A DNA stretch of 64,000 bases, taken from NCBI RefSeq assembly GCF_002954545.1, contig NZ_MSCH01000003.1, forward strand, positions 372,001-436,000, given 5' to 3'. Below are positions 28,603 through 64,000 of the stretch, one piece after another. The notes beneath the pieces were generated by a model. The model was not told where the DNA came from. It did no database searches and saw only the letters and a list, made by a program, of their open reading frames with translations. Made by a program: the position numbers and the translations under genes. The stretch comes from Psychrosphaera saromensis (lineage in GTDB: Bacteria > Pseudomonadota > Gammaproteobacteria > Enterobacterales > Alteromonadaceae). How positions within the stretch are numbered: position 1 is the stretch's first letter; every line of letters starts with the position of its first letter.

Positions 28603-28932
28603 ATGATCCCTGGTGAAATAAAAACTGACAGTGGCAATCGTGAGCTTAACGTAGGCCGCGAGCAGATAACCGTAACCGTTGCTAACTCAGGTGACCGACC
28701 TATTCAAGTTGGCTCGCATTATCATTTTTACGAAGTGAATCGCGCGTTGATTTTTGAGCGTGCAATCACCAAAGGTTATCGTTTAGATATTACCTCAAGT
28801 ACGGCGGTTCGTTTTGAGCCGGGTCAAGAAAGAGAAGTTACTCTCATCCCTTATCGCGGTAAGCGTCGAGTATTCGGCTTTCGTGGTGATATTCAAGGTG
28901 ATGTTGATGGTAAAAAAGAGGGAGATAAGTAG
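28603..28932 (+). CDS. ureB: Urease beta subunit
   Basis: A 109-residue beta subunit. It begins [16 protein letters not shown], then [14 protein letters not shown] (the conserved histidine motif), [16 protein letters not shown] and the [10 protein letters not shown]-terminal motif. It ends two bases before the ureC start, indicating coupled translation. Confidence 0.96.
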
Positions 28933-28934
28933 TC

Positions 28935-30638: not shown

Positions 30639-30660
30639 ATAGACTTATTTAAGGACTTAC

Positions 30661-31867: not shown

Positions 31868-31916
31868 ATAACAAATAAATTTCTGACAAAAGAAAAGATA
31901 AAAAGAGAACAAATAA

Positions 31917-32528: not shown

Positions 32529-32563
32529 TTTTCAGCATTGATTTACTCATAAACCAAATTTAT

Positions 32564-32577
32564 ACCAATTGAATTAA
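32564..32577 (+). repeat. Intergenic motif ACCAATTGNATTAA, copy 3
   Basis: ACCAATTGAATTAA in the short gap between ureG and the next small gene; the AAGGA that follows serves as the ribosome site of that gene. Confidence 0.45.
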
Positions 32578-32586
32578 GGAATTAAC

Positions 32587-32778
32587 ATGAAATTTTTAAC
32601 AATACTTATTAGCTTACTTTTTATATTCAGTGCTCAAGTAGCCGCACATCCAGATCATAGTTTAACTGAGAATTCTCATGCTATTTATCACGCTGTGTTT
32701 TGGGCTTTATTTGCTGTGGTAGTTTACAAAGGCTATACATGGTTTAAAAATAAGAAGTCTGAAAAAAATCAGGATTGA
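32587..32778 (+). CDS. Small exported/membrane protein after ureG
   Basis: A 63-residue protein with a signal-like N-terminus (about 1-19, likely cleaved before HPDHS), a His-containing segment (HPDHS...H...YH) and one membrane helix (about 33-52), then a lysine-rich tail. An AAGGA ribosome site precedes the ATG and a terminator follows, so it looks like the last gene of the urease operon. I do not recognise the family. The histidine-rich mature N-terminus next to urease genes suggests a link to nickel, but this is speculation. Confidence 0.65.
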   Translation: MKFLTILISLLFIFSAQVAAHPDHSLTENSHAIYHAVFWALFAVVVYKGYTWFKNKKSEKNQD

Positions 32779-32803
32779 TAATTAGGGGCTGTTTATAAAT
32801 AAG

Positions 32804-32854
32804 ATTGCTGTAGTGGATACGTCTTTAGATAAGGCTCCATTACAGCAATTTTTG
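32804..32854 (+). terminator. Intrinsic terminator at the end of the urease operon
   Basis: ATTGCTGTAGTGGA at 32804 pairs with TCCATTACAGCAAT ending at 32849 (one G-T pair) and is followed by TTTTT. It lies between the convergent small gene and the TetR gene. Confidence 0.75.
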
Positions 32855-32882
32855 TCGCTTTTTAAAGGTTAAACAGCTGAGC

Positions 32883-33509
32883 TTATTTGATACCACAGCC
32901 TTTAAGAATGATCTGCGTTAATGAAGCAACCACCTCTTCAAAATCTTGATCTTGCATATTATCTTTATCTAAAGCTGCCACAACCTGCACATTAAAATCT
33001 GCGTAGTGTTGAGTAGAACTCCATATTAAAAACAATAAATGATGCGGATTAACCTTGTCGATTAAACCTTGCTCAACCCAAGACTCAATAACCGCAACTT
33101 TGCTTGCAAGCCATGTTTTAAAGTCGCTATTAAGGTAGTCATTTAGCACTGGCGCACCATGAATAATTTCACTGGCGAATATTCTCGAAGCATCCGGATC
33201 ATCTTTCGCGTGCATTACTTTTGCTCGAATATAATCACTCAATGCTTGTTTTGGTTCGTTGTCCACATTTAGGGTGTCGTAGTCGGTATTCCACGCAGCA
33301 ATAATGCTGCTAAGCAATTGCTGATATAAGTCAGTTTTGTCTTTAAAGTAGTAATGGATATTGGCTCTGGCGATGTCGGCTCGTTCAGCTATGCGCTTAA
33401 TTGATGCACCTTTAAAACCATGAGTTACAAATTCTTTTTTTGCAGCATCGAAGATAATGGCTTTATTCTTTTGCCTGATACGGCCTTCTTGCTCCTTCAC
33501 TTTTGTCAC
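32883..33509 (-). CDS. TetR family regulator, RutR-like
   Basis: A 208-residue repressor-type protein. The N-terminal helix-turn-helix is clear (GFKGASIKRIAERADIARANIHYYFKDK, given here only as the region about 31-58). The C-terminal ligand domain resembles the RutR/YcdC type (FASEIIHGAPVLNDYL, then HLLFLIWSSTQHYADF). RutR of E. coli binds pyrimidines and recognises TTGACCA-N2-TGGTCAA. Start codon is GTG at 33509 with a strong AGGAGTT site. As the last gene of the purine operon, and with RutR-like operators elsewhere in the window, it is the leading candidate for the local purine/nucleoside regulator. The ligand is unknown. Confidence 0.88.
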   Translation of the reverse strand: MTKVKEQEGRIRQKNKAIIFDAAKKEFVTHGFKGASIKRIAERADIARANIHYYFKDKTDLYQQLLSSIIAAWNTDYDTLNVDNEPKQALSDYIRAKVMHAKDDPDASRIFASEIIHGAPVLNDYLNSDFKTWLASKVAVIESWVEQGLIDKVNPHHLLFLIWSSTQHYADFNVQVVAALDKDNMQDQDFEEVVASLTQIILKGCGIK

Positions 33510-33531
33510 AATAACTCCTATAAAACAATTA

Positions 33532-33554
33532 ACGTTAGGATTTAATCTAAACGT
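33532..33554. promoter_or_regulatory. Imperfect palindrome upstream of the TetR gene
   Basis: ACGTTAGGATT...ATCTAAACGT arms match at 18 of 23 positions, ending about 23 bases before the GTG start. It may be an autoregulatory site. A separate TCAGCGGC/GCCGCTGA repeat (33554-33591) lies just beyond and could be a weak end signal for malate synthase. Confidence 0.3.
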
Positions 33555-33633
33555 CAGCGGCAGATTTAACGATATTAATATAGGCCGCTGATAATGTTAA
33601 CAATTAGAAAGTAAAAAACCAATTTTTTACAAC

Positions 33634-35877
33634 CTATATAAGCTCAGCCTTCAATTCAACACGACGCTGATGTAATAACGGCTCTGTGTAACCACTTGGT
33701 TGTTCTTTACCTTTTAAAATTAAATCGACTGCAGCCTGAAACGCAATATTAGTATCAAAGTCAGCTGACATAGGTCTATACGTTGGGTCTGCTTGGTTTT
33801 GAGAGTCAACCACCGCGGCCATTCGATACAAAGATCCCATCACTTGCTCTTGGCTTAACATGTCGTGTAACAACCAATTACAAATGTGCTGACTAGAAAT
33901 ACGTAACGTTGCTCTATCTTCCATACGACCAACGTTATCAATGTCTGGTACTTTTGAGCAGCCCGTACCTTGGTCAATCCAACGTACCACGTAACCTAAT
34001 AAACCTTGAACATTATTATCTAACTCATGCTGTATGTCAGCGGCCGTTAACTGTTGTTTATTTTTTAATAGTGGAATAGTTAACAAATCGGTTAAACCAT
34101 CATCCACTTGCTTCGTTGCAAACTGCTTAAGCATTTCATCTTGAATATCACTGACATTAACCTGATGATAATGCAGAACATGTAAGGTAGCAGCGGTTGG
34201 CGATGGCACCCAAGCACAGTTAGCGCCTGATTTTGGATGAGCAATTTTAGTCTCAACCATAGCGGCCATTTCATCGGGTGTTGCCCACATGCCTTTGCCT
34301 ATTTGCGCTTTGCCTTTTAAGCCCGCTTGTAAGCCGATACGCACATTACGTTTCTCATACGCGTCAATCCACGGTTCGTTCTTCATTAACTCTTTACGTG
34401 CCATTGGGCCTGCTTGCATACTGGTATGGATTTCATCACCAGTACGGTCCAAAAATCCGGTGTTAATAAAGGCAATACGGTCTTTAGTCGCTCGGATACA
34501 TTCTTTTAAGTTAACCGATGTGCGGCGCTCTTCATCCATAATTCCCAATTTAATGGTATTGGTTGCTAAACCTAAACATGACTCAATACGAGTAAATAAC
34601 GCATTACTAAATGCCACTTCAGCAGGGCCATGCATTTTAGGTTTTACAATGTAAATACTGCCTTGGCGTGAGTTTACAAATTGAGAATTACGTTTTAAAT
34701 CATGCAGGGAAATTAGTGTAGTGATCAATCCATCTAAAATACCTTCAGGGACTTGCTGATTGTCAGCGGTTAGCACCGCATCATTTGTCATTAAGTGACC
34801 GACATTGCGAATAAATAACAAACTACGTCCTGGCAAGGTTAAGGTTTGATTATCTACTGTGCTGTAGGTTCTGTCGGGATTAAGTTTTCTAGTAATTGTG
34901 ACGCCATTTTTCTCTAACTGTTCGGTTAAGTCACCTTTCATTAAACCTAACCAATTACGGTAAACACTGGTTTTATCTTCGGCATCAACCGCCGCAATTG
35001 AGTCTTCACAGTCTTGAATCGCCGTTAACGCTGACTCTAAAATAATGTCGGCTACCGAGGCCGCATCAGCTTTGGCCACAGGCGAACTTGGATCAATTTT
35101 AATCTCTATATGAAGGCCGTTATTTTTGCACAAAATTGCACTTGGTTTTTGTCCATCACCGTTATACGCAACAAACTTTTCAGGCTGCTTTAAACTCACT
35201 TGCTGTCCTGACTTGAGTGTTATAACTAATTGAGACGCTAACACTTGATAACCAGTTACATCACTATGGCTACCAGAAGTTAACGGAATAACACTGTCTA
35301 AAAATTTACGAGCATAAGCGGTTACTTTGGCGCCACGGATTGGGTTGTAACCTTTGCCAGCGGCTGCGTTGTCATCGTCACTGATAACGTCTGTGCCATA
35401 AAGTGCATCGTACAAACTGCCCCAACGTGCGTTGGCTGCATTTAATGCAAAACGTGCATTCATTAGTGGCACGACTAATTGTGGTCCTGCAACCACAGCG
35501 ACTTCTTCATCCACTTGTGTTGTGGTGATAGAAAAGTCTTCTTGTTCTGCCACTATGTAACCAATATCAGTTAAAAACGTCTGGTACTTTCTCTGGTGAT
35601 CAAGCACTTTACTGTGCTCAAGCTGTGATGCTTTATCTGTCGGGTTAACGTGTTGAGGGGCAGAATTTGCTAAATGCCACGCATCTATTTGTGCTTGAAA
35701 CTCTTCTCGTTTTTCAAGTAAGGCTTTATTTTTAGGCATGAATTCATCAAAGATATTCGCCATAGATTGCCAAAAATGATCAGCCTTGATACCTGAATCT
35801 GGCAGCACTTCATTTTCTACCAAGTTGTATAACGACTCAGCAACTTGATAACCGTGTTTTATTACTCGCGTGTTCAT
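33634..35877 (-). CDS. glcB: Malate synthase G
   Basis: Condenses glyoxylate with acetyl-CoA to malate. At 747 residues it is the G isoform (E. coli 723). The TIM-barrel core includes [30 protein letters not shown], and [18 protein letters not shown] with the expected catalytic and magnesium residues, and the C-terminal domain has [17 protein letters not shown]. An ATG 15 bases upstream exists, but AGGATAGG directly precedes the ATG at 35877. It follows puuD by about 46 bases, so in this operon it would consume the glyoxylate released from ureidoglycolate. Confidence 0.96.
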
Positions 35878-35923
35878 AAACCTATCCTTCATCGCATTAA
35901 TCAGAGCTATATTTTAGTCCCGA

Positions 35924-37117
35924 TTATTTACTAATTTGTTGTAACCAAGTCGCTAATTGACCGCGCTCTTGATCCGTCATTTTAGTCTTATTCATAAATG
36001 GCATGTCTTTAGCGTCGACAACTCGTGCTTGTATGCGTGGCGCCCATTGTTTAATTGAAGCTTCACCATTAAATACCACACCACCTTGAGCTACCGTGAA
36101 AATGTCGTCGGTATTTTGTTCTGAATGACAGGCACTACAACGCCTTTCTATAATTGCTTGTACTTGCTCCATACTAACTTCTTGTTCTAGCTGCTCAGCA
36201 CTAATTTCTACTTTAGCTGGCGCAATGACATAAGCTAGCGCAATGGTTGCGGCCACGGCTCCAACAATAATACCTGGCTTATTTTTACCGAAATGACGAA
36301 GTACAAAATATTGTCTAACCGCTGCCGTGGTTAATATAAGCGCCATCAATACAACCCAACCGGCATTGTGATTAAATGTCATTGGATAGTGGTTAGAGAT
36401 CATAATAAAGATCACGGGCAAGGTAATATAAGTATTATGAGTTGAGCGTAATTTGGCGTTCAAACCATATTTAGAGTCTGGTTTTGAACCATCTTCTACC
36501 GCTTTCACCAAAGCACGCTGTGCGGGCATAATGCCAAAGAACACATTACCCGCCATGATAGTTCCGATAACTGCGCCCATGTGCATATAAGCACCACGAG
36601 CACTAAATACTTGCATCAAGCTGTAAGATAACCAAGTGCCTAATGCCAGTAAAATAACGGCTAAAATTAAACTATGATCTTTAAGTTTAGTTCTCACTAA
36701 AACTTCATACGTTCCAACACCAACAACAATTGAACCTAAGCCATATAAAATAGCTTGCAGCTGAGTAAGCTCGGCAACACTAGAGTCAATAAGGTAAGTT
36801 TCAGCCCCTACATAAAACATTAGCGATAATAAAAAGAAGCCAGTGATCCATGTGGTGTACGCTTCCCACTTAAACCAATGCAACATAGTTGGCATTTTTG
36901 GTGGCGCAAGTTTGTATTTGGCTACCTCATAAAAACCACCGCCATGGATAGCCCATAAATCACCAGAAATACCTTTGTCGACTTTTTCTTGTGGTGGCGT
37001 TTCTAAGTGATTATCTAGCCACACAAAATAAAATGATGCGCCAATCCAAGCAATTCCTACCACTACATGTGCAAAGCGAATGACTAAATTTAGCCAATCT
37101 GTAATATACGGATCCAT
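35924..37117 (-). CDS. puuD: Membrane urate oxidase PuuD with cytochrome c domain
   Basis: A 397-residue integral membrane enzyme. About eight to nine helices form a DUF989-type domain with many conserved histidines (RFAHVVVGIAWIG, MHMG, STHNTY, ISNHYP). A C-terminal cytochrome c domain has the haem motif CSACH at 327-331 and likely axial Met in MPFMNKTKM. This architecture is that of PuuD, which oxidises urate to 5-hydroxyisourate and passes electrons to the respiratory chain rather than to oxygen with peroxide release. No soluble uricase or HpxO is seen in the window, and PuuD completes the path between XDH and UraH. Confidence 0.92.
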   Translation of the reverse strand: MDPYITDWLNLVIRFAHVVVGIAWIGASFYFVWLDNHLETPPQEKVDKGISGDLWAIHGGGFYEVAKYKLAPPKMPTMLHWFKWEAYTTWITGFFLLSLMFYVGAETYLIDSSVAELTQLQAILYGLGSIVVGVGTYEVLVRTKLKDHSLILAVILLALGTWLSYSLMQVFSARGAYMHMGAVIGTIMAGNVFFGIMPAQRALVKAVEDGSKPDSKYGLNAKLRSTHNTYITLPVIFIMISNHYPMTFNHNAGWVVLMALILTTAAVRQYFVLRHFGKNKPGIIVGAVAATIALAYVIAPAKVEISAEQLEQEVSMEQVQAIIERRCSACHSEQNTDDIFTVAQGGVVFNGEASIKQWAPRIQARVVDAKDMPFMNKTKMTDQERGQLATWLQQISK

Positions 37118-37185
37118 AATTTTTCTCGATTCTTGTTATGTTTTAATAATTCTTTTAATGCGTATTTTAATAGCACTTGTTAAAT

Positions 37186-38472
37186 TTAAACTTTTTCACC
37201 CATTACATGGGTGGCTTTTACATGACGTTCGTCACCTAACATACTCAGAATAAATAGCTTTTCAGATAGTTGAGTACAATGCTGCATTCGTCTGTCCATT
37301 AACGCAGTTGCATGATAATCAAGAACCACAAAGTCAGCTTCTGCACCTTTAGTGAAATTACCAATTGTGCCTTCCAGGTCCAACGCGATAGCACCGCCAA
37401 GCGTGGCTAAATAGAACGACTGAAAAGGACTTAACTTATCACCACGTAACTGTTGAGTTTTATAACCATCACTCATCGTACTTAACATAGAAAATGTAGT
37501 ACCAGCTCCAATATCAGAGCCCATTCCAACATTGATATCGAACTGCTTAGCTTGGGTAAGATTAAACAAACCACTGCCTAAAAACAGATTTGAACTCGGG
37601 CAAAAAGCAATAGCGGAGTCGGTTTCACCTAAACGCTGACATTCAGAGTCGTGTAAATGCACACCGTGGGCAAACACACTTCGGCGGCCTAACAATTTAC
37701 TCTTGTCGTAAACATCTAAATACCCATCACTTTCTGGGAATAACTCTTTTACCCAGGCAATTTCATTGAGGTTTTCACTTAAGTGCGTATGCAAATAAAC
37801 ACTTGGGTTTTCTGCTAGTAATTGCCCCGCTTTATCTAATTGTTCTGGTGACGATGTTGGCGCAAATCTAGGTGTAATTGCGTACTGTAAGCGGTCGACG
37901 TTATGCCATTTTTCAATTAATTGTTTTGACTCTTGATAACCTAATTCTGCCGTGTCTGATAAATCTTCAGGGCAATTACGATCCATCAAGACTTTGCCAC
38001 AAATCATTCTAAGTTTTTTCTGTTGGGCGGCGGTAAAAAATGCATCGACCGAGGCTTTATGAACTGTACCAAATACCAATGCCGTTGTGGTTCCAGCATC
38101 TAACAACTGCTCTAAGAAGAAATCAGCAACCGCTTTTGCATGATCAAAATCACTAAATTGTTTTTCAAATGGGAAGGTATAATTTTCTAACCACTCAAGT
38201 AACTGTTCACCATAAGAGGCGATCATCTCGGTTTGCGGATAATGCACGTGCGTGTCGATAAAACCCGGCATGATCAAACCATTTTCATAGTGAGTCACTT
38301 GGATGCTGTCATCAATATTGGGTAACAGCTCAGCTGCGCTGCCAACCTGTTCCACTAAGCCGTCTTTTATGATCAATAGGCCATCTTCAAAATATTGATA
38401 ACTTTCTTCCAATGCAACTTTGGCAGGGTCTGCCAAAAAATGAAGAAGCTCACCACGATATACTTTTAACAT
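37186..38472 (-). CDS. guaD: Guanine deaminase
   Basis: A 428-residue amidohydrolase. PGFIDTHVHYPQ (about 69-80) carries the zinc-binding HxH and the guanine deaminase-type continuation; FGTVHKAS, HTHLSENLNEI, FAHGVHL and GMGSDIGAGT supply the remaining metal and substrate residues. It converts guanine to xanthine for XDH. An AAGG site precedes the ATG. It is part of the minus-strand purine operon. Confidence 0.93.
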   Translation of the reverse strand: MLKVYRGELLHFLADPAKVALEESYQYFEDGLLIIKDGLVEQVGSAAELLPNIDDSIQVTHYENGLIMPGFIDTHVHYPQTEMIASYGEQLLEWLENYTFPFEKQFSDFDHAKAVADFFLEQLLDAGTTTALVFGTVHKASVDAFFTAAQQKKLRMICGKVLMDRNCPEDLSDTAELGYQESKQLIEKWHNVDRLQYAITPRFAPTSSPEQLDKAGQLLAENPSVYLHTHLSENLNEIAWVKELFPESDGYLDVYDKSKLLGRRSVFAHGVHLHDSECQRLGETDSAIAFCPSSNLFLGSGLFNLTQAKQFDINVGMGSDIGAGTTFSMLSTMSDGYKTQQLRGDKLSPFQSFYLATLGGAIALDLEGTIGNFTKGAEADFVVLDYHATALMDRRMQHCTQLSEKLFILSMLGDERHVKATHVMGEKV

Positions 38473-38630
38473 CTTTTTTTACCTTAATTAATAACGCTGA
38501 TTTTATGCATCAAAAACGTTATTTTTATATTCTGTTTATTTTTTCTTAGCTGTTTTCTTAGCTACTTTTTATTTAGCTGCTGTCTGTTTAACTACTTGGC
38601 TAACTATTCTTAAACTATCTTCGAATAACG

Positions 38631-39128
38631 CTAACTCTGGGCTATCACTAACGCGCCGTCGAGTTCCAATACATCACAGTTACCACCTTCTCCACCTCGG
38701 TCTATCACAAGGAAGTCACTTTCGCTGTTTAGTGCTAAACAGAAATGATGCCAAGTGCCTTTGTGATAGTTTACACCTTGGTTAGAGTCAGCTAAAAACA
38801 CTTCAATTTTGTTAACATCAAATTCCCCAGCAGGCGCAACCACGACCAAATATGGATTATTCCCCATAGGAATGAATGCTTGGCTACCTAAAGGATGACG
38901 TTCCATCATCTTGATTGCGATGGGCTGCTCTAGTGGTGTTGAACGGAAAATATTAACCAATACTCGCCCGTCTTTGTCATTAACATCTACCTTAGCTAAG
39001 TCGTGATAACGCTGGGTAAAACCATCATTAATGGCAAAGTTATTAGCTTGTTCATTCGCTTCAATTACATCACCAAAGACTTTAAATGCATCTTTGGTTA
39101 ATGGCTTTGGCATACATTTTTTTAACAT
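38631..39128 (-). CDS. allA: Ureidoglycolate lyase
   Basis: A 165-residue cupin-like enzyme that cleaves ureidoglycolate to glyoxylate and urea. The family pattern is clear: KPLTKDAFKVFGDVIEA near the N-terminus, ERHPLGSQAFIPM (about 81-93), and GTWHHFCLALN (about 124-134) with metal-binding type histidines. It acts after allantoicase; the urea feeds urease and the glyoxylate feeds malate synthase. A GGAAA site precedes the ATG. A gap of about 150 bases to guaD holds nothing recognisable. Confidence 0.93.
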   Translation of the reverse strand: MLKKCMPKPLTKDAFKVFGDVIEANEQANNFAINDGFTQRYHDLAKVDVNDKDGRVLVNIFRSTPLEQPIAIKMMERHPLGSQAFIPMGNNPYLVVVAPAGEFDVNKIEVFLADSNQGVNYHKGTWHHFCLALNSESDFLVIDRGGEGGNCDVLELDGALVIAQS

Positions 39129-54081: not shown

Positions 54082-54109
54082 TTGACCAAATGGTCAGGAA
54101 AGTTATTAT
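54082..54109 (+). promoter_or_regulatory. Promoter with RutR-like operator before the xapX-like gene and deoD
   Basis: TTGACCAAATGGTCAG at 54082-54097 matches 15 of 16 positions of the RutR-type palindrome TTGACCA-N2-TGGTCAA. TTGACC (54082-54087) is a good -35, and TATTAT (54104-54109) 16 bases on is a good -10, so the operator covers the -35 and part of the spacer: repression is the likely outcome of binding. Confidence 0.65.
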
Positions 54110-54197
54110 TAGCCGCAATTAATCAATACATCCAATTTCAGTTCAATTGACCTTGTAATAAATACTAAGTCAGTGACAGAATAAAAAAGGAATTATT

Positions 54198-54368
54198 GTG
54201 GTAGAACTATTAACCGCATTAGCAACCGGTGCTTTAGTCGGTGTTTTATTCTCTTTATTTAAATTACCCTTACCTGCCCCACCTGTTTTGTCGGGTATCG
54301 TTGGTATTTTCGGTATTTATTTAGGGGGAGTTGGCTACCAGTGGATTATTGAGCGCTTTTCTAGCTAA
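54198..54368 (+). CDS. XapX-domain small membrane protein
   Basis: A 56-residue protein with two hydrophobic helices (about 3-20 and 30-50) joined by LPLPAPPVLSG. The A-P-P-V motif between helices is the hallmark of the XapX (DUF1427) family, named from the E. coli xanthosine operon. Start is GTG with an AAAAAAGG ribosome site. Its place between a nucleoside operator and deoD supports a link to nucleoside use; the molecular role is unknown. Confidence 0.8.
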   Translation: MVELLTALATGALVGVLFSLFKLPLPAPPVLSGIVGIFGIYLGGVGYQWIIERFSS

Positions 54369-54587
54369 AGTCGCTTATTTATAAAGATCATTCACTAAAG
54401 AGCGCTTACTAAAATCGTTTACTTTGTTTATAGTAAACAGCACAGCCGAGCTTTTAATAGCTTATGTTTTAAACAGCTTATAATTTTAATTAAATTGTCA
54501 GTAAAAAATCCTTGATAGCAGACAGTCATATCGCAGTCTGGCTTGAAACTTACTGAGTTATACTTCTTAACAAAAAGGTTAACTCTT
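54369..54587. other. Gap between the xapX-like gene and deoD
   Basis: 219 bases. No terminator and no clear second promoter were seen, so deoD may be read from the same promoter. An in-frame ATG-like extension of deoD (from 54543) lies here but is not family-like. Confidence 0.35.
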
Positions 54588-55292
54588 ATGTCTACAGCAC
54601 ATATTGAAGCCCAAATGGGCGATTTCGCAGAAACGGTATTAATGCCAGGCGACCCTCTTAGAGCAAAATTTATTGCCGAAAACTTTCTAGACGATGCTAA
54701 ATGCGTAACACGCGTTCGTAATATGTTTGGTTACACGGGTACTTATAAAGGTAAACGCATCTCAGTTATGGGTTCTGGAATGGGTATTCCTAGCGTATCA
54801 ATTTACGCAACTGAGCTTTACAAAGACTATGGCGTAGAAGAGATCATACGCATTGGCTCATGTGGCGCAGTACGTGATGACATTCATGTACGTGATATTG
54901 TTATTGGTATGGCAGCAAGCACAGACTCAAACGTTAACCGTCAACGTTTAGGTAATGTTGATTTTGCAGCTTGCGCTGACTTCTCTTTGTTGAAGAAGGT
55001 TGTCGATACCGCTGAAAAATTAAAAACACCAGTTCACGTTGGTAACATTTTCACTGCAGATTTGTTCTATACACCAAATCCTGAAATGTTTGCTCAAATG
55101 GAAAAATACGGCATGTTAGCGGTAGAAATGGAAGCGGCTGGCCTTTACGGTGTTGCTGCTGAATATGGCAAAAAAGCATTAACGGTATTAACAGTTAGTG
55201 ACCATATTAAAACGGGTGAAGTAACGACAGCTGATGAACGTGAAACGACGTTTAAAGATATGATGGAATTAACGTTAGAAAGTATTCTGTAA
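54588..55292 (+). CDS. deoD: Purine nucleoside phosphorylase DeoD
   Basis: A 234-residue hexameric phosphorylase that splits purine (deoxy)nucleosides with phosphate into base and (deoxy)ribose 1-phosphate. The family start [20 protein letters not shown] is conserved; [13 protein letters not shown] contacts phosphate, [13 protein letters not shown] the ribose, and the catalytic aspartate is in [10 protein letters not shown]. An ORF extension of 15 codons upstream is not family-like. Convergent with deoB, which uses its sugar phosphate product. Confidence 0.96.
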
Positions 55293-55340
55293 CGTAAAAA
55301 ACGCTTTCTATATAAAGCTTCTGGCTTAAAAAACAGATAC

Positions 55341-55375
55341 AAAAAAGGGTTAACTGATTCAGTTAACCCTTTTTT
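55341..55375. terminator. Bidirectional intrinsic terminator between deoD and deoB
   Basis: A-tract, GGGTTAACTG, short loop, CAGTTAACCC, T-tract: a near-perfect symmetrical hairpin between convergent genes. Confidence 0.9.
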
Positions 55376-55406
55376 AATACTCAAGATTTGTTATCTAACC
55401 TAAGCT

Positions 55407-56621
55407 TTATTTAAAGTTTAGTTCCGTTAAGAAGCTAGTACCATAATCCATATCTTCAACGTTAAACAACTCAGCAACCGTTTGTCCTAAGTCGGCAAAC
55501 GTTTTACGCTCACCTAAGTCAACGGCACCAATATTATGATGATAAGCCAATACTGGAACATACTCACGAGTATGGTCGCTGCCCGGCCAAGTTGGATCAC
55601 AACCATGATCGGCAGTTAACAGGAGTACATCGTCATCCGCCATTGCTGCGTATACTTCTGGCAATCTAGCATCAAACGCTTCTAATTCTTGCGCGTAACC
55701 AACGGGGTTACGTCTGTGACCAAAGTCTTGGTCAAAATTAACTAAGTTAGTAAAAATCAACGTGTTGTCATTGGCTGTTTTTATATGCTTTATGCTGGCA
55801 TCTAACAGGGCATCTAAACCAGTCGCTTTGGTTTTTTCACTGATACCTTGATGAGCAAATATATCCGCTATTTTACCTACGCTTATTACGTGTGTTCCAG
55901 CCTCTGCTATTTTATCTAATACCGTTGGTGCAGGCGGTAATACTGAATAATCACGACGATTACCAGTTCTTGCAAATTCAGCAGGTGTTTCACCAACAAA
56001 AGGTCTGGCGATAACACGCCCAATATTTAAGTCGTCCAACTGCTCTCGCACGATTTCACAATATTTATATAAATTGTCGAGACCAAAATGGGTTTCATGT
56101 GCAGCAATTTGGAAAACACTATCGCCCGAGGTATAACAAATTGGTAAACCCGTTTTTATATGTTCTTCACCTAACTGCTCTAAAATTGTAGTGCCAGATG
56201 CATGGCAATTACCTAACATTCCGTCAAAGCCAGTCGCTTTATTTATCTTGTCAATTAAGTCGCTAGGGAACGAGTTTTCTTTATCAAGGAAGTAACCCCA
56301 ATCAAATAATACCGGAACACCAGCCATTTCCCAGTGTCCACTTGGCGTATCTTTACCTGTGCTGATCTCGCGAGCATAGCCATGAGCACCTTTACTAGCC
56401 AATCCACCTTTATGAGGTACTGAAATATTGGATGCGCCTTTGCATGCGTCAAATAATCCTAAAGCCGCCAAATTAGGTAAATTTATTTCATTACCCGTTT
56501 CATCTAAATAGGCTTTAGCCAAATTTGCTAAGGTATTTGCCCCAACATCACCAAAGCTTTCAGCATCAGGAGAATACCCTATACCAAAACTATCCATTAC
56601 TAATATAATTGCTGTAGACAT
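55407..56621 (-). CDS. deoB: Phosphopentomutase
   Basis: A 404-residue alkaline-phosphatase-fold mutase interconverting (deoxy)ribose 1- and 5-phosphates. [22 protein letters not shown] at the N-terminus holds metal ligands; [16 protein letters not shown] carries the phosphoacceptor threonine; [10 protein letters not shown] and [11 protein letters not shown] complete the bimetal site. AGGG precedes the ATG. A RutR-like operator lies about 60 bases upstream. Confidence 0.96.
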
Positions 56622-56680
56622 TACGAGCCCTATTCGATGTATAAACCGAAATAATTTATGTATAAACTACGTATAAAAAC

Positions 56681-56696
56681 ATGACCACATGGTCAA
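56681..56696 (-). promoter_or_regulatory. RutR-like operator upstream of deoB
   Basis: Read on the minus strand: TTGACCATGTGGTCAT, 15 of 16 fixed-plus-free positions of TTGACCA-N2-TGGTCAA. TTGACC can serve as the -35 of deoB; TATACG 15 bases on is a fair -10. It may also affect udk, which diverges from the same region. Confidence 0.6.
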
Positions 56697-56878
56697 CTTG
56701 TGTTAATTTATCATCATTTGAAATTAGGGTAAACGATGATATTAAGATCACAGCAATAACAATTGTCGCTGTGTGAAAAATCATTTCCTAAAATGCACTT
56801 ATATCATTTGGCTTTTTGGATTAATTTGCTAGTCTATTCACCGAATTTTATGAACCTGCGTAACCAACAGGCAAGACA

Positions 56879-57520
56879 TTGAAACCAACTATTATTACAA
56901 TTGCAGGTCCGTCTGCATCAGGCAAAACACTGTTTGCACAAACAATTCATGACGAGTTAATTGAAGAGTTGGGTGAAGGTGGAATATCCATCATATACGA
57001 AGATGCCTACTATCGAGATCAATCTCACCTCTCAATGGAAGAACGTGTTGAAACCAACTACGATCATCCAGATGCATTTGAACATGACTTATTAACTGAG
57101 CACTTAGAAAAGCTCACTAATAACGAACCAATTCAAAGTCCAGTATATTGTTACAAAACACATACTCGAACGGCTGAAACTAACGCTTTTGCTCCAACCA
57201 AAATAATTTTGGTTGAAGGTATTTTATTACTTTCTAATAAAAAACTCAGAGAGCAGTTTGATATTAAAGTGTACATGGATACTCCTTTGGATATTTGTTT
57301 AATCCGAAGAATTAAACGTGACATTGTTGAACGTCAACGTAGTGTTGAGTCGGTTACCAACCAGTATTTAGAAACGGTAAGACCTATGTACCATCAGTAC
57401 ATTGAACCTTCCAAAGCTTGGGCTGACATTGTTGTCACAAGAGGCGGAAAAAATAGAATGGCGATTGAAGTAATAAAAGCAAAAATTCGCCAAATTTCAC
57501 AACTACCACCACAAAAATAA
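56879..57520 (+). CDS. udk: Uridine kinase
   Basis: A 213-residue kinase phosphorylating uridine and cytidine to UMP and CMP. The P-loop G-P-S-A-S-G-K-T is at 10-17; IYEDAYYRDQSHLSMEER, YDHPDAFEHDLL and the RRIKRDIVERQRS segment are family-typical. The start is a TTG at 56879 with AGG upstream; no in-frame ATG precedes the P-loop. It leads the plus-strand salvage genes and is followed after 16 bases by the nucleoside transporter. Confidence 0.94.
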   Translation: MKPTIITIAGPSASGKTLFAQTIHDELIEELGEGGISIIYEDAYYRDQSHLSMEERVETNYDHPDAFEHDLLTEHLEKLTNNEPIQSPVYCYKTHTRTAETNAFAPTKIILVEGILLLSNKKLREQFDIKVYMDTPLDICLIRRIKRDIVERQRSVESVTNQYLETVRPMYHQYIEPSKAWADIVVTRGGKNRMAIEVIKAKIRQISQLPPQK

Positions 57521-57536
57521 TTAAAAAAGGGTGATC

Positions 57537-58784
57537 ATGGATTTATCAATGCTTAGAGGTTTAGTAGGGATTGTAGCGTTACTCGTTATCGCCTACACCT
57601 TATCAGACGGTAAAAAACAAATTAACTATCGTACAGTAGGATTCGCTTTTGCGGTTCAGCTTTTACTTGGAGCCTTTGTTTTATATCTTCCATTTGGTAA
57701 AGACGTTTTATTGTCTATTACTGGTGGCGTTCAAGGTGTTATTGATAGCGCCAAAGAAGGTATTAACTTCTTGTTTGGTGGCTTAGGCACAGACGCCATG
57801 TACAGCAATGGCGTTGGCTTTGTATTTGCTATCCGTGTTTTACCTAATATTATCTTTTTCTCATCTTTAATCGCGGTTCTTTATTATTTAGGCGTTATGC
57901 AATGGGTAATAAAAATCATTGGCGGTGGATTACAAAAATTATTAAAAACCAGTAAAGCAGAATCTCTTTCTGCCACCGCAAATATTTTTGTTGGGCAAAC
58001 TGAAGCGCCATTGGTTGTGCGCCCTTATATTGCAAAAATGACCCAATCAGAATTATTTGCCATTATGGTTGGTGGTTTAGCTTCAGTTGCAGGCTCGGTA
58101 ATGGTTGGTTATGCCGGACTTGGTATTGAACTAAAATACCTAATTGCTGCATCTTTTATGGCCGCCCCTGGTGGTTTATTAATGGCAAAAATAATTTGTC
58201 CTGAAAAAGAACCTGAAAGAATAATTGAAGAATCAGTCGAGATTGATAAATTTGACGAAAATAAACCGGCAAATGTAATTGACGCTGCTGCCTCTGGTGC
58301 AGCATCAGGCCTTAAATTAGCAGTAAATGTTGGTGCTATGTTATTGGCCTTTATTGCATTAATAGCTTTGTTTAATACGATTGTTGGCGGCATATCTAGC
58401 ATGTTTGGTTTTGAAGGTATTACCATCGAATTTATTCTTGGTTACCTGTTTGCACCATTTGCCTTTATCGTCGGTGTACCATTTGAAGAAATGTTACAAG
58501 CTGGTAGTTTTATTGGTCAAAAGGTTGTGATTAATGAATTCTTTGCTTACACAAACTTTGTCGACGTCAAAGGTGCATTGTCACCGGTAACTCAAGTCAT
58601 TATTACCTTTGCTTTGTGTGGTTTTGCTAACTTATCATCTATCGCTATTTTACTTGGTGGTATTGGTTCAATGGCGCCGAGCCGTCGTCCAGATATCGCA
58701 AGACTTGGTATGCGCGCTATGATTGCCGCAACCTTAGCTAATCTTATGAGCGCCGCAATTGCTGGCTTCTTCTTTGCCTTGTAG
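57537..58784 (+). CDS. NupC-family concentrative nucleoside transporter
   Basis: A 415-residue inner-membrane transporter of the CNT family with about 8-10 helices. [17 protein letters not shown] (about 154-170) is the CNT signature including the substrate-contacting [15 protein letters not shown] and the C-terminal [21 protein letters not shown] are also diagnostic. It should take up nucleosides with protons or sodium. A GTG two codons earlier is possible, but AAGGGTG places the ATG at 57537. Confidence 0.94.
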
Positions 58785-58805
58785 GCCTGACGTTAGGAAA
58801 TGAAT

Positions 58806-59579
58806 ATGACTGACTTAAAAGCAGTAGCACAACGTGCATTATCCTTAATGGATTTAACCAGTTTAACCAATACAGAAACCGATGCTGACATTATCAAATT
58901 ATGTCAGCAAGCCAAATCACCAGCTGGTGAAACTGCCGCTATTTGTATTTACCCACGATTTATACCACTGGCAAAAAAAATACTAAAAGCGCAAGAAACT
59001 CCGCATGTAAAAATAGCCACTGTGGCTAACTTCCCTGCAGGCAATGACGATTTAGACATTGCCCTTGCTGAAACCAAAGCGGCTGTTGCTTATGGCGCTG
59101 ATGAAGTCGACTTAGTATTTCCATACAAAGCCTTAATAGCTGGTAATGAAAATATTGGCTTTGATATGGTCAAAGTGTGTAAACAGGCTTGTATTGGTAA
59201 AGCCAAATTAAAAGTGATCATTGAAACCGGTGAATTAAAAACACCTGAGTTAATTAAACGAGCAAGTGAAATTGCCATTAATGCCGGTGCTGACTTTATT
59301 AAAACATCAACCGGTAAAGTAGCCGTTAACGCAACACCTGAAGCTGCTAAAATTATGTTAGAAGTGATTAAAAACAAAAATATAGATGTTGGTTTTAAAC
59401 CTGCTGGCGGCGTTAAAAATGCACAAGATGCTGATGTATATTTATCACTAGCGGATCAAATCCTTGGTGAAGAATGGGCAACAGCTGAGCATTTCCGATT
59501 TGGAGCCAGTAGCTTATTAGCAAGCCTGCTAGATACCTTAGGCCATAAAGTTGATACGAGTTCAGCAAGCGGTTATTAA
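58806..59579 (+). CDS. deoC: Deoxyribose-phosphate aldolase
   Basis: A 257-residue class I aldolase that splits deoxyribose 5-phosphate into glyceraldehyde 3-phosphate and acetaldehyde. It begins [20 protein letters not shown] like E. coli DeoC. The Schiff-base lysine is in DFIKTSTGK and the second active lysine in VGFKPAGGV. An ATG six bases upstream is too close to the AGGA site, so 58806 is preferred. Confidence 0.96.
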
Positions 59580-59641
59580 TTCCTAACTAGTTGCTATCAA
59601 TACTAGAATACTAAATACATCAGACAATAAAGAAGCAGACT

Positions 59642-60220
59642 ATGGCACAACTTTACTTTTATTATTCGTCAATGAATGCCGGAAAATCTACTCATTTATT
59701 GCAGTCATCGTATAACTATCATGAGCGTGGATTGCGCACCGCAATCTACACAGCTCAAATTGATGACCGTTTTGCTAAAGGTAAAGTTGCTTCAAGACTA
59801 GGTATAGATGCCGACGCTTATTTGTTCGACGACAGTAAAAACTTATTGTCTGAAATTGAACAAATGCACGCAGATCAAAAATTAGATTGTGTACTGATTG
59901 ATGAAGCCCAATTCTTAACCACCGAACATGTTAAGCAATTAACCGACGTGGTGGACCTATTAAATATTCCAGTCCTCGCTTACGGTATTCGTACCGACTT
60001 CTTAGGGCAAACCTTCTCAGGTAGCGCCGCATTATTAGCCTGGGCTGATAAATTAGTTGAGTTAAAAACCATTTGCCATTGTGGCCGCAAAGCCAATTTT
60101 GTTATTAGACAAGACGCCAATGGCATAGCAGTAAAAGATGGTGCGCAGGTGGAAGTTGGCGGTAACGAACGTTACGAACCACTTTGCCGAGCTCACTTTA
60201 AACAGCTAGTTTGGAATTAA
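59642..60220 (+). CDS. tdk: Thymidine kinase
   Basis: A 192-residue type II thymidine kinase. P-loop SSMNAGKST (about 9-17), DEAQF (about 87-91), lid-like [14 protein letters not shown] and a zinc-binding set CHCGRKA...C near the C-terminus. It phosphorylates thymidine and deoxyuridine. It opposes thymidine phosphorylase DeoA functionally: salvage versus catabolism. Confidence 0.96.
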
Positions 60221-60278
60221 TTGAAGCTTAATGTCTTAACGAAACACAATCACTTATTCATACACTAACGGGAAAAAC

Positions 60279-60905
60279 ATGGCCATTTTTGAAAGCACTC
60301 ATCCACTGGTAAAACACAAAGTTAGTTTGTTACGTGACATTGATATATCCGTTAAAGCGTTTCGTGAGCTAACTAAAGAAGTTGCCGTATTACTTACTGT
60401 AGAAGCCACACAACACTTTGAATTAACACAAGTGCCACTTACTTGCTGGTCAGGTGACATTCAAGTTCCTATGGTCGCAAAACCTCAACCAACCTTAGTG
60501 CCAATTTTAAGAGCTGGTTTAGGTATGTTAGATGGTGCATTAACTATCTTACCTTGTGCCAAAATAAGTGTGGTTGGCTTACGCCGTGATGAAAAGACTT
60601 TAGATCCAGAAACTTACTACGAAAACATAATCAACGATATTGAAAGCAGAACGGCAATTATTATTGACCCTATGTTAGCCACTGGTGGCACGGCCATCTC
60701 AACCATAGATTTGCTTAAAAAATCAGGCTGTAAACACATAGTTGCTTTGTTTTTAGTTGCAGCACCAGAAGGCATTCAAGCATTAGTCGATGTGCATCCA
60801 GATGTGGATTTGATCATAGGTACAATAGATGAAAGATTGAATGAAAATGGATACATTTTGCCTGGTTTAGGCGATGCGGGTGATAAGATATTCGGCACGC
60901 TTTAG
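60279..60905 (+). CDS. upp: Uracil phosphoribosyltransferase
   Basis: A 208-residue enzyme making UMP from uracil and PRPP. It carries HPLVKHKVSLLRD at the N-terminus, the PRPP loop DPMLATGGTAIS (about 131-142) and the uracil-binding GYILPGLGDAGDK C-terminus. Its TAG stop begins the 8-base repeat array that follows. Confidence 0.97.
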   Translation: MAIFESTHPLVKHKVSLLRDIDISVKAFRELTKEVAVLLTVEATQHFELTQVPLTCWSGDIQVPMVAKPQPTLVPILRAGLGMLDGALTILPCAKISVVGLRRDEKTLDPETYYENIINDIESRTAIIIDPMLATGGTAISTIDLLKKSGCKHIVALFLVAAPEGIQALVDVHPDVDLIIGTIDERLNENGYILPGLGDAGDKIFGTL

Positions 60906-61030
60906 GTTTGAAGGCTATAAGGCTATAAGGCTATAAGGCTATAAGGTTTTAAGGTTTTAAGGTTTTAAGGTTTTAAGGTTTTAAGGCTATAAAGCTGGAA
61001 GGTTTTAGGGTTTGAAGGCTTTAAGTTTTA
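60903..61030. repeat. Sixteen-unit 8-base tandem array starting at the upp stop codon
   Basis: In strict 8-base register from 60903: TAGGTTTG (containing the upp stop), four AAGGCTAT, five AAGGTTTT, AAGGCTAT, AAAGCTGG, AAGGTTTT, AGGGTTTG, AAGGCTTT, AAGTTTTA. Ten of the sixteen are exact copies of one of two variants. It lies between convergent upp and deoA. Confidence 0.92.
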
Positions 61031-61042
61031 ATTATCAGTGGA

Positions 61043-61082
61043 GAGAGCCGAGTTGCGAATCTTAACTCGTATCTCGGCTCTC
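61043..61082. terminator. Strong hairpin between convergent upp and deoA
   Basis: GAGAGCCGAG and CTCGGCTCTC form a perfect 10-base stem, with an inner GAGTT/AACTC pairing. No T-tract follows on either strand, so it may be an end-protection hairpin or a factor-dependent terminator rather than an intrinsic one. Confidence 0.6.
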
Positions 61083-61100
61083 GCAGCTCGATACTAATAT

Positions 61101-62405
61101 TTAACTATAAATCACTGGCGCTAGCTTTGGCTTAGCGTCTGAGAAGCTCAATGCTCCTAGATATTGCTCTGCCGCTAACTTTGCTCCAGCTTCATCTTTC
61201 GCATGCACACGTGCTATTACATCGCCAGATGTTACCTTTTCACCAAGTGGTAAAATAGCATCAAAACCAACAGTGTGATCAACCAACTGACCTGGTGCAG
61301 TTCTTCCTCCACCTAAGCCAACCACTGACATACCAATATCACGAGTATTCATTTGTGCTAAATAGCCACTTTGCGCCGCTTTAATATCAACAATCACGTT
61401 AGCTTTTTGCATTGCTGCCCAAGGCTGTTCAATATAATTTGTTGGACCGCCTAACGCTGCAACCATCTTGTCAAAAATCTCAGCTGCTTTGCCTGAGTCT
61501 AAGGCGTTATTAATTTGTTTTTCTGCTGAACTCGCATCAAGTGCTAAACCAGAATTAACCAACATAGCCGTCGCTAGAGACTTCACCACGGTATGTAAAC
61601 GTGGGTCAATAAATTCACCCGTTAAATACTGTACAGTCTCAAACATTTCAAGCGCATTACCTGCAGTGACACCAAGTACTTGGTTCATGTCGGTAATAAT
61701 CGCTTGGGTTTTTACCCCTGCGTTATTGGCCACACTGCTGATGCTTTCTGCCAATGCTTGTGCATCTTCTAATGACGTCATCATAGCGCCATTACCGACT
61801 TTCACATCCATCACTAACGTATCAAGACCTGCCGCTAATTTTTTAGATAAAATAGAAGCGGTGATCAATGGAATAGACTCTACCGTTGCAGTGACATCTC
61901 TGATTGAATAAAGACGTTTGTCCGCCGGAGCCAAATTATCAGTTTGCGAAATAATAGCAACGCCTAGCTCTTTTACTATTTTCTTGAACTGAGGAATAGT
62001 TGGCTGAACGTTAAAGCCTGCAATACTTTCTAACTTATCAGACGTACCACCAGTGTGGCCTAAACCACGGCCAGAGATCATAGGAACATAACCACCACAC
62101 GCGCCAACAATAGCAGCCAGCATAAAGCTAACTTTGTCACCAACACCACCCGTTGAATGTTTATCAACGATAGGGCGGTCATAACCTTCCCAGCTTAAAA
62201 CGTCGCCTGAGTGCATCATGGATGTGGTTAATGTTACTTTTTCTTCGGTGTTTAAGCTGTTTTGGAAAATAGCCATTGCCATCGCGCCCACTTGAGCATC
62301 TGAAAACGAACCGTCGACTAAGCCATCAACAAAGCGCTGAATTTCTTGTTGCTTTAATACACCACCATCACGTTTTATTCTTATAATTTCTTGAGGTAAT
62401 AACAT
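61101..62405 (-). CDS. deoA: Thymidine phosphorylase
   Basis: A 434-residue enzyme converting thymidine and phosphate to thymine and deoxyribose 1-phosphate. The signature region V-D-K-H-S-T-G-G-V-G-D-K-V-S (about 80-93) and SGRGLGHTGGTSDKLES are conserved. The frame runs 28 codons further upstream into cdd, but the ATG at 62405 has an AAGGA site and begins MLLPQEIIRIKRDG like the family. It follows cdd closely; one transcript from the operator at 62878 is likely. Confidence 0.95.
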   Translation of the reverse strand: MLLPQEIIRIKRDGGVLKQQEIQRFVDGLVDGSFSDAQVGAMAMAIFQNSLNTEEKVTLTTSMMHSGDVLSWEGYDRPIVDKHSTGGVGDKVSFMLAAIVGACGGYVPMISGRGLGHTGGTSDKLESIAGFNVQPTIPQFKKIVKELGVAIISQTDNLAPADKRLYSIRDVTATVESIPLITASILSKKLAAGLDTLVMDVKVGNGAMMTSLEDAQALAESISSVANNAGVKTQAIITDMNQVLGVTAGNALEMFETVQYLTGEFIDPRLHTVVKSLATAMLVNSGLALDASSAEKQINNALDSGKAAEIFDKMVAALGGPTNYIEQPWAAMQKANVIVDIKAAQSGYLAQMNTRDIGMSVVGLGGGRTAPGQLVDHTVGFDAILPLGEKVTSGDVIARVHAKDEAGAKLAAEQYLGALSFSDAKPKLAPVIYS

Positions 62406-62415
62406 GTACTTGTCC

Positions 62416-62835
62416 TTAAACGTTAGATAATTGTTTTGGTGTAAAGGCATCCGGTAAAAGACCAGATACTGTCCATATTTTTTGTACATTTTTATGATTT
62501 ACCGCAACCACAGGTGCATCGTTGGCAAAGAACTCAGAGATCACTTGTCTGCAAGCGCCACAAGGTGGTGTTAACTCATCTTGTTCTGTGTAAATCACGA
62601 TAAGCTGAAATTCCTGCTCACCATTAATAACGGCATTACTAATACAGTTACGCTCAGCACAAACCGTTAAACCGTAAGACGCATTTTCAACGTTACAGCC
62701 TTTAACAATATTACCGTTAGCAGTTAATGCCGCAGCACCAACATGGAAGTTGCTATAAGGTGCATAAGCCTTGTTGTATGCGTCTTTGGCAGCATCTACA
62801 AGTTCTTGAGTAAGTAGCTCTTTTAAGTCAGTCAT
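62416..62835 (-). CDS. cdd: Cytidine deaminase, short tetrameric type
   Basis: Deaminates cytidine and deoxycytidine to uridine and deoxyuridine. It carries YAPYSNFHVGAA, the proton-shuttling glutamate in CAERN and zinc-binding PPCGACRQ; at about 139 residues it is the short form, unlike the 294-residue E. coli enzyme. An ATG at 62865 adds ten polar residues (MNDDNNNETI). The predicted transcription start, from the -35 TTGACC at 62893, falls near 62859, downstream of that ATG, so 62835 is favoured even though its ribosome site is weak. Confidence 0.93.
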   Translation of the reverse strand: MTDLKELLTQELVDAAKDAYNKAYAPYSNFHVGAAALTANGNIVKGCNVENASYGLTVCAERNCISNAVINGEQEFQLIVIYTEQDELTPPCGACRQVISEFFANDAPVVAVNHKNVQKIWTVSGLLPDAFTPKQLSNV

Positions 62836-62877
62836 AATAGTTTCATTGTTATTATCGTCATTCATACAATAGCATTG

Positions 62878-62893
62878 TTGACCATTTGGTCAA
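62878..62893 (-). promoter_or_regulatory. RutR-like operator of cdd-deoA
   Basis: A perfect palindrome TTGACCA-N2-TGGTCAA. On the minus strand TTGACC is the -35, with TATTGT 16 bases on as -10. Of the copies in this window it fits the RutR consensus exactly. Confidence 0.7.
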
Positions 62894-62986: not shown

Positions 62987-64000
62987 TTAGAATTTATATT
63001 TAATACCAATTTTAGCGCTCCAAGTAGACTCTCTGTCTTGGAACTCAACTGGTGAATCACCAGCTTCTACGCCATTACTTTCATAAACGTATTGGCCAGC
63101 ATCATTGATTGAGTAACCAAATATTGCGTCACTTGTTGAACCAAATGGGTTTTGATAAACACGCGCTGATTTAGCATCAATTAATGCTAATGCATTGTTG
63201 ATATCTATATAGAATATACCTTTATGACCATCTAAGAAGCCAGGTAACTCTTGTTCAAAGCGTAAATCCATTGTAGTTGTCCATGGACCACGGAATGAAT
63301 TTTTATCTAAATAACCACCGCTTGTTGAAGCACCAATAGTATTTAAATCAGCAATGATTTCTTCATAGCTTAAGCCATTAACAAAATCGACAGCTGGATC
63401 ATCAGCACCTGTTGGGATATAAGCTAACGCACTAGTTGTTAAATCTAGGTTACCAGATAACCCATCTTCATCATTAGTTCCAAGTAACCAGCTGTATGGT
63501 TTAGCTGATTTACGTTCCCAGAACATTGAGAAGTTAGAGTTATAACCAGAAACTAGTTCAGTATTATAAGAAAGACTAAATGTTAGTCGATGCTTAGTCT
63601 CAAATGCTGACGTTCCAATCTCAGGACTTTCAGGGTCAATTACAGGGTTATATTCATAAGCTGTATTTGTTGAAGTACCTGTAGCTGAAATACGATCTTG
63701 TACATCAGAGTGAGTGTATGAGAAGTTAGCATTAAAGCCACTTTCAAAACGTTTAGCAATTGAAAGTGATTCAATCAGTGTATGTCCACCTGAACTATTG
63801 CTCAGTAGAGTATCACGATTGCTTCTATTTTCATCCGTTCTAGTATAGATAGGACGACCTTCAACTGTGTATCCGTCGATACCTTTAGAAGTATCTAGGG
63901 TACGTGATAAATCAGACCAGATAAGATCAGTTTCAATATCCTTATACAACACCTCAGCACTAACATACCAGTCTTCACCTAGACCGATGCTAGATAAATC
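62987..64000 (-). CDS. TonB-dependent receptor, C-terminal part (cut by the window edge)
   Basis: The frame is open to the right edge, so at least 338 C-terminal residues of a larger outer-membrane receptor are present; the true start lies outside. The barrel strands alternate as expected, and the end IGIKYKF terminates in phenylalanine. The segment MDLRFEQELPGF-x-x-G-HKGIFYIDINNAL resembles the end of Oar-type receptors with a carboxypeptidase-regulatory domain. Proximity to the salvage genes hints at nucleoside or DNA-derived substrates, without proof. Confidence 0.85.
   Translation of the reverse strand, partial: DLSSIGLGEDWYVSAEVLYKDIETDLIWSDLSRTLDTSKGIDGYTVEGRPIYTRTDENRSNRDTLLSNSSGGHTLIESLSIAKRFESGFNANFSYTHSDVQDRISATGTSTNTAYEYNPVIDPESPEIGTSAFETKHRLTFSLSYNTELVSGYNSNFSMFWERKSAKPYSWLLGTNDEDGLSGNLDLTTSALAYIPTGADDPAVDFVNGLSYEEIIADLNTIGASTSGGYLDKNSFRGPWTTTMDLRFEQELPGFLDGHKGIFYIDINNALALIDAKSARVYQNPFGSTSDAIFGYSINDAGQYVYESNGVEAGDSPVEFQDRESTWSAKIGIKYKF

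Follow-up and report, generated by a model that had tools for sequence, protein, structure and literature searches.

A 64 000-nucleotide stretch of the genome of Psychrosphaera saromensis (hereafter the window) contains three copies of the palindrome TTGACCA-N2-TGGTCAA upstream of genes of nucleoside salvage. We consider it probable, at about 0.8, that these palindromes are the operators of a locally encoded TetR-family repressor, here named B, that controls nucleoside salvage. B (209 amino acids) is encoded 2.8 kb past the end of the window, at positions 438821-439450 of contig C6, which carries the window in the 3.6 Mb genome designated G000. The sites are conserved in related genomes, are linked to and co-occur with B and not with A, a second RutR-like TetR protein encoded in the window (32883-33509, minus strand), and overlap promoter-like elements. 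It appears that, in Psychrosphaera, Colwellia, Thalassotalea and their marine relatives, a repressor akin to the uracil sensor RutR has acquired a new and conserved set of genes, for the use of nucleosides and probably also for the digestion of external DNA and RNA.

In the mechanism that we propose, a dimer of B without ligand would occupy TTGACCA-N2-TGGTCAA and keep RNA polymerase off the promoters of cdd-deoA, of udk-nupC-deoC-tdk-upp (and/or deoB) and of xapX-deoD. Breakdown of nucleic acids would raise the level of a nucleobase or nucleoside; B would bind this ligand and leave the DNA, and its release would switch on the genes of uptake and salvage. In G000 or related species the induction would extend to nucleases, to a TonB receptor and to B, together with the endonuclease/exonuclease/phosphatase (EEP)-family and alkaline phosphatase genes behind B.

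Palindromes and their co-occurrence with B

The pattern TTGACCA-N2-TGGTCAA, which we take to be the motif of RutR, was scored by mismatches, with the reversed pattern as control. A direct scan confirmed the three palindromes listed in the first-pass annotation of the window, all inside 8.8 kb: operator 1, TTGACCAAATGGTCAG (54082-54097, one mismatch), operator 2, ATGACCACATGGTCAA (56681-56696, one mismatch), and operator 3, TTGACCATTTGGTCAA (62878-62893), which is indeed perfect. At up to three mismatches the window has 11 matches, against 3.69 expected, and none of 100 shuffled sequences gets to 11. The whole G000 genome has four places with at most one mismatch; the reversed control has one, and a first-order Markov genome of the window composition gives 0.75 (mean of four runs). 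The reported sites account for three of these places, and no other among the four is intergenic. The fourth (C6:2561824-2561839) falls within a coding sequence, some 170 bp ahead of a gene that by eye resembles pyrF; its 16 bases recur identically in genome G002 (C1:7067), probably through chance and coding conservation.

The distribution of the sites was studied in 78 genomes. There is a B ortholog (at least 62% identity) in 17 of them, an A ortholog (at least 67%) in 10 and both in seven. Sites with up to two mismatches were scored in the 400 bp upstream of genes of the deo, cdd and udk regions (in genomes without B, deoB and some cdd regions only). Rows were left out if the alignment did not start before residue 15 or if less than 120 bp was available upstream; this removed the cdd of G015, which has a perfect site, and the cdd of G024 and deoB of G036, with no site in either.

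Sites upstream of cdd are present in 11 of the 16 genomes with B (12 of 17 rows, G000 being represented twice) and in none of the eight without it. For deoB the figures are 11 of 18 copies in B genomes (three of the seven misses are copies of the classic type) against 0 of 32, and for udk 14 of 15 genomes against 0 of two. The reversed control gives no site in the cdd, deoB and udk sets of the B genomes and one in the 32 deoB regions of the others. The Fisher p-values, which ignore shared ancestry, are 8.5e-7 for deoB, 0.002 for cdd and 0.022 for udk. Genome-wide, there are 65 places with at most one mismatch in the 17 B genomes (control, 27) and 134 in the 61 others (control, 107), some of which hold RutR-like proteins with sites of their own. 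B is found at the same locus as cdd-deoA in 14 of the 17 genomes that carry it.

A second set was obtained by scanning named genomes with the alignment of B. It comprises 80 loci, 44 of them with B at 60% identity or more, from Colwellia, Thalassotalea, Litorilituus, Cognaticolwellia, Pseudocolwellia and other genera; the closest include those of Psychrosphaera sp. F3M07 and of an uncultured Psychrosphaera. The fetched stretch includes cdd in 34 of the 44 B loci, several of the other ten being short contigs. Among 44 distinct cdd promoters (all B-type and cluster loci, the window included), 37 have a site with at most two mismatches and 31 a site with at most one. Across related genomes the palindromes are kept upstream of cdd-deoA, in the gap between deoB and udk-nupC and at the promoter of B, and at deoD operons in fewer genomes.

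It is improbable, in our judgement, that another regulator binds these sites and that B is a mere neighbour. G000 has 13 TetR_N matches and the co-occurrence comparison covered A and B only, but site presence follows the presence of B, and B lies in linkage with these genes and carries candidate sites in its promoter. The palindrome also occurs upstream of the genes of other RutR-like proteins themselves, in G016, G043, several Halomonas and Billgrantia (L201:1309-1324, L202:2675-2690 and most of loci L299-L313), a further point against this reading. Because these proteins share the palindrome, the B regulon is probably younger than the motif.

The first-pass annotation had proposed A as the possible regulator, and this part of it was not borne out. 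Control of the sites by A, alone or together with B, is if anything a little less probable than control by another regulator. A is itself RutR-like, with a YcdC-like C-terminal domain, and at about 39% identity between the two proteins cross-binding is conceivable in the seven genomes that have both. However, when the genomes are separated by their content of the two proteins, at least one site at cdd, deoB or udk is present in nine of the 10 genomes with B and without A (the exception is G019) and in six of the seven with both (the exception is G036), against none of the three with A and without B (G010, G049 and G061). The most telling genome is G010, in which deoD, deoB, udk and cdd of the cluster type are all retained, A is present at 84% identity and B is absent; the best matches at these four genes have five mismatches. 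In the 400 bp upstream of the 10 A orthologs no site of at most two mismatches occurs (the best has three, in G061; the other nine have five or six). A further search for an operator of A itself, among palindromes upstream of the 10 A genes, gave nothing widely shared, a variant AACCA-N2-TGGTT being present in the window and G002 only. On the evidence of co-occurrence, phylogeny (see below) and promoter content, A was rejected as the regulator and is not included in the regulon.

Several observations weigh against control by B. In G019, which carries B and the cluster genes, cdd, deoB and udk all lack a site. The cdd of G036, another genome with B, has none, and the cdd site is also missing in G039 and L273; the genes missing in G036 and G039 are uncertain, since these genomes are only about 80% complete. 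The remaining cdd promoters without a site are those of G041 and G034 (three mismatches each), G019 and G010, which has no B. It is A, not B, that lies beside cdd-deoA in G015, and A is near deoD in G046. The site of the deoD operon is poorly kept in B genomes (three of 13 xapX upstream regions and one of 17 deoD upstream regions), and the promoter of B in G000 holds weak sites only. All 17 B orthologs have F or I at the position of Y97, one of the residues with which RutR contacts uracil. The counts given above are not independent because related genomes share ancestry. Finally, there is no genome-wide excess in G000 at up to two mismatches (22 places, against 30 for the control). Outside open reading frames (ORFs) of at least 80 amino acids, the 22 comprise only the three reported sites and the stem-like C6:2364909; the ORF calls are mechanical, and C6:3134614 lies close to the 5' end of the ORF that contains it. 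With no enrichment at this level and all but one of the extra places inside ORFs, we claim no further targets in G000 beyond the weak sites before B.

Proteins A and B and the known regulators

A and B form separate, fully supported groups in the phylogenetic tree, which comprises 94 rows with near-copies excluded (43 of B and nine of A; the tenth A ortholog, from G061, is unlabelled and falls in the A group). RutR of Escherichia coli is on a long branch and its placement is unsure. Both proteins score below the cut-offs of the RutR equivalogs: A has 189 bits for TIGR03613 (cut-off 368) and 164.2 for NF011584 (cut-off 230), and B has 162.7 and 140.4 bits, respectively. B matches PF00440 (TetR_N, 39.6 bits) and PF08362 (TetR_C_3, YcdC-like, 155.1 bits), both over cut-off, which places it in the RutR-like (YcdC) group. 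The genes around A in the window code for urease, urate oxidase, ureidoglycolate lyase and malate synthase, and its setting among purine and urea catabolism genes further argues against a role for A at the palindromes. The whole block around A (27243-39128) runs from purine to urea; the malate synthase is of type G, and the urate oxidase has a cytochrome c-like C-terminus (below cut-off).

The closest solved relative of B is RutR (E = 7e-44 with a profile of the 17 B proteins), with a nearly full-length alignment. RutR of E. coli is 31% identical to B and, like B, is a TetR protein with a YcdC-like C-terminal domain, Lys52 in the recognition helix and the same residues at four of five positions of the uracil pocket. 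According to a figure legend in PMC10891134 (Fig. 5), RutR contacts uracil through Q171, W167, W77, Y97 (through water) and Q179 of the other chain. B keeps W77, W167, Q171 and Q179; the ortholog of G046 also has F at W167. Given that the uracil contacts other than Y97 are kept, the inducer of B is likely a nucleobase or nucleoside, and with Y97 replaced by F or I it may differ from the ligand of RutR. Lys52, which touches a DNA base in the homology model presented in the same source (PMC10891134), is kept in B; A has Arg at this position, a further point against A.

The targets differ. Those given for RutR in that report are rut and car (PMC10891134), whereas those predicted for B are deo, cdd, udk and nupC. 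The E. coli rut promoter matches the palindrome at three mismatches only. A gene for rutA was not found by tblastn (E <= 1e-8) in the 80 named B-like loci, a search confined to these loci and not extended to the rest of the genomes. In a survey of Proteobacteria (PMC5343134; 68 genomes from 13 taxa in its Table 1), RutR is described as a transcription factor whose distribution is mosaic and whose motif changes from taxon to taxon; its regulons are placed under pyrimidine catabolism, and the passages considered make no mention of nucleoside salvage, cdd or deo for RutR.

The first-pass annotation had also suggested that RutR-like control has taken the place of DeoR and CytR in nucleoside salvage; with the sites kept in relatives and no equivalog of either regulator among the G000 proteins scanned, this is well supported. 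DeoR and CytR control the deo genes in E. coli; they act on the same kind of genes as the B regulon, and belong to different protein families. For CytR, the two LacI-family proteins of G000 score 203.9 and 161.9 at best (cut-off 436). For DeoR, the full-length DeoR-family protein scores 72.6 (cut-off 244), one short second match to PF08220 (a 155-amino-acid frame) being left unscanned. The best matches of the LacI-family pair are GalR and RbsR and those of the DeoR-family protein SrlR and AgaR, all below cut-off. A lineage-specific nucleoside regulator has also been predicted in Shewanella, under the name DeoR* (PMC3223726); it belongs to the Crp family, not to TetR, and to another lineage. 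No account of the B regulon was found in searches of the full-text literature, which did not reach RegPrecise and most subscription papers.

Position of the putative operators at the promoters

The sites were compared in a set of 75 (37 at cdd, 23 at deoB, two at xapX and 13 at B promoters), picked at up to two mismatches, so that their likeness is partly a result of selection. Every position of the core TGACCA-N2-TGGTCA agrees with the consensus in 66 to 75 of the 75 sites; the outer bases vary.

In G000, operator 1 is upstream of xapX-deoD. A -10-like hexamer, TATTAT (54104-54109, plus strand), identical in G001 and G002, follows its TTGACC half after 16 bp and is itself followed by the genes for an xapX-like small protein of 56 amino acids (54198-54368, plus; TIGR03510, 64.2 bits, cut-off 27.8) and for the purine-nucleoside phosphorylase deoD (54588-55292, plus; TIGR00107 over cut-off). 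Operator 2 is in the divergent gap between the cluster-type copy of the phosphopentomutase gene deoB (55407-56621, minus) and the candidate operon udk-nupC-deoC-tdk-upp (56879-60905, plus; NCBIfam matches). Here the -10-like GTTAAT (56702-56707, plus) lies 15 bp after ATGACC and forms a candidate udk-nupC promoter. Operator 3 is upstream of the genes for cytidine deaminase, cdd (62416-62832, minus; NF004064 over cut-off), and thymidine phosphorylase, deoA (61101-62405, minus; TIGR02643 over cut-off), and its TTGACC half precedes the -10-like TATTGT (62866-62871, minus) by 16 bp. The cdd ORF opens at 62865, but 62832 is the likelier start, judged from the position of the -10 hexamer and from relatives.

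According to the first-pass annotation, each palindrome sits on the -35 box of the downstream gene. Because the palindrome is nearly self-complementary, a TTGACC half that points towards a gene carries little weight when taken alone. The position was examined across promoters, with identical ones counted once both for cdd and in the offset analysis and with start sites taken from sequence alone. The cdd promoters form two sets. In class I (n = 17, the window included) the operator is 33-90 bp from the start codon, and a -10-like hexamer with at least four of six matches is found at a spacer of 16 after TTGACC in 13 of 17, which is the best offset tried (the next best, a spacer of 11, gives 10 of 17). 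In class II (n = 19) the operator is at most 32 bp from the start codon, and the best -10-like position ends exactly at the operator start in 11 of 19. Since the hexamer ends where the operator begins, the class II operator would lie at the likely transcription start, before the ribosome site. The site of G008, 195 bp away, is in neither class. An operator at the -35 position or at the start site is as expected of a repressor, and both cdd positions suit repression by B.

In the gap between deoB and udk, the conserved -10-like offset is that of udk (spacer 15, at least four of six matches in 20 of 26 udk promoters); for the deoB promoters, no spacing from 15 to 18 is among the six best offsets. 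The overlap with -35 stands in G000 for cdd, xapX-deoD and udk, the promoter supported at the middle site being the divergent udk-nupC one and not that of deoB. The overlap is not general, the cdd operator of other lineages being at the likely transcription start. That the palindromes are plain -35 boxes, strong and symmetrical by chance, fits the position of TTGACC at xapX-deoD and cdd in G000 but is very improbable and was rejected as largely refuted by this comparison, since many sites (19 class II cdd promoters) are not at -35 and since the palindrome is repeatedly found in full at the same genes and is missing from them when B is absent.

Sites with at most two mismatches are nearly absent upstream of the other genes of the candidate udk operon in B genomes (nupC 0 of 14, tdk 0 of 16, upp 0 of 14 and deoC one of 15), which is consistent with transcription of udk-nupC-deoC-tdk-upp from the udk promoter. 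G000 has a second deoB, of the classic type (C6:3110075-3111316), which is 61% identical to the cluster-type copy and has no operator; this type is found in congeners without B.

Probable wider reach of the regulon

The promoter of B itself has a site with at most two mismatches in nine of 17 genomes (control, two of 17), and TonB receptors have one in nine of 21 cases (control, two of 21). In G000 two weaker sites precede B: CTGACCATACAGTCAA (C6:438512, three mismatches), of which G001 and G002 have variants in the corresponding position, and CCAACTACTTGGTCAA (four mismatches, 78 bp upstream), also with variants in G001 and G002 and positioned like TTAACTATATGGTCAA of the Colwellia loci L236, L237 and L239. 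B is divergent from the TonB receptor gene beside cdd. Behind B are the genes for an EEP-family protein and then an alkaline phosphatase, both of which look exported by eye.

The 16 other B genomes have 61 places with at most one mismatch, against 26 for the control. Twenty places outside the main cluster were examined in these genomes; 13 are intergenic and seven are in ORFs (for one of these seven, L218, the sole reason is that the ORF was taken to start at a TTG inside the site). At seven of the 13 intergenic sites, the gene that follows has a product in keeping with the use or uptake of nucleic acids: endonuclease I, S1/P1 nuclease, an EEP-family protein, a phosphoribosyltransferase, a TonB receptor and, by eye, a second TonB-receptor-like protein and a PreT-like oxidoreductase (in NCBIfam, GltD-type families below cut-off). 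The other six precede genes that do not fit, for an alginate lyase, an M4 peptidase and, by eye, PckA-, Pgi-, chemoreceptor- and PolA-like proteins. With seven fitting and six non-fitting sites, a wider foraging regulon mixed with chance matches is likely.

Extracellular DNA is described as a source of phosphorus, nitrogen and carbon in the sea (PMC8289736). On balance we favour the broader view that B in Psychrosphaera, Colwellia and their kin is a master repressor of nucleic-acid foraging, which covers nucleases, a phosphatase, TonB receptors, uptake and salvage, replaces DeoR and CytR, and has kept its regulon while the cdd operator moved between the -35 position and the start. If this is true, a locally encoded repressor ties nucleases to the uptake and breakdown of nucleosides and constitutes a testable diet switch in marine bacteria such as Colwellia. 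It would also be a case in which a family of pyrimidine-sensing repressors was given new genes, with the operator kept and its position relative to the promoter changed.

Operator 1 belongs to a short conserved island. The matching sequence (72 bp in G002 and 49 bp in G001) is found there before an EEP-family gene, followed by xapX and deoD; the order in G032 is EEP-family protein, adenosine deaminase, xapX and deoD (the EEP-family gene was identified by family search in G002 and by eye in G001 and G032). G000 keeps the site of the deoD operon without an EEP-family gene there, and the simpler reading is that this gene was lost from the operon in G000. The xapX sites of G037 and G008 are inside the preceding add gene and were not counted as promoter sites.

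The TonB-dependent receptor gene beside cdd (3' part at 62987-64000, minus; 1057 amino acids) runs past the window to C6:438160 (L029:988-4161). Its product is 72-74% identical to copies from Thalassotalea and Colwellia (L145, L149, L259, L264, L266, L268 and L269) and only 36-38% identical to the receptors that occupy this position in G001 and G002, the nearest congeners, where the neighbours from udk to cdd are 84-99% identical. Because its identity to these other genera is higher than to G001 and G002, the receptor gene was apparently exchanged within the locus. Short tandem repeats, composed of GGCTATAA and then GGTTTTAA units, are present directly after upp (60905-61020).

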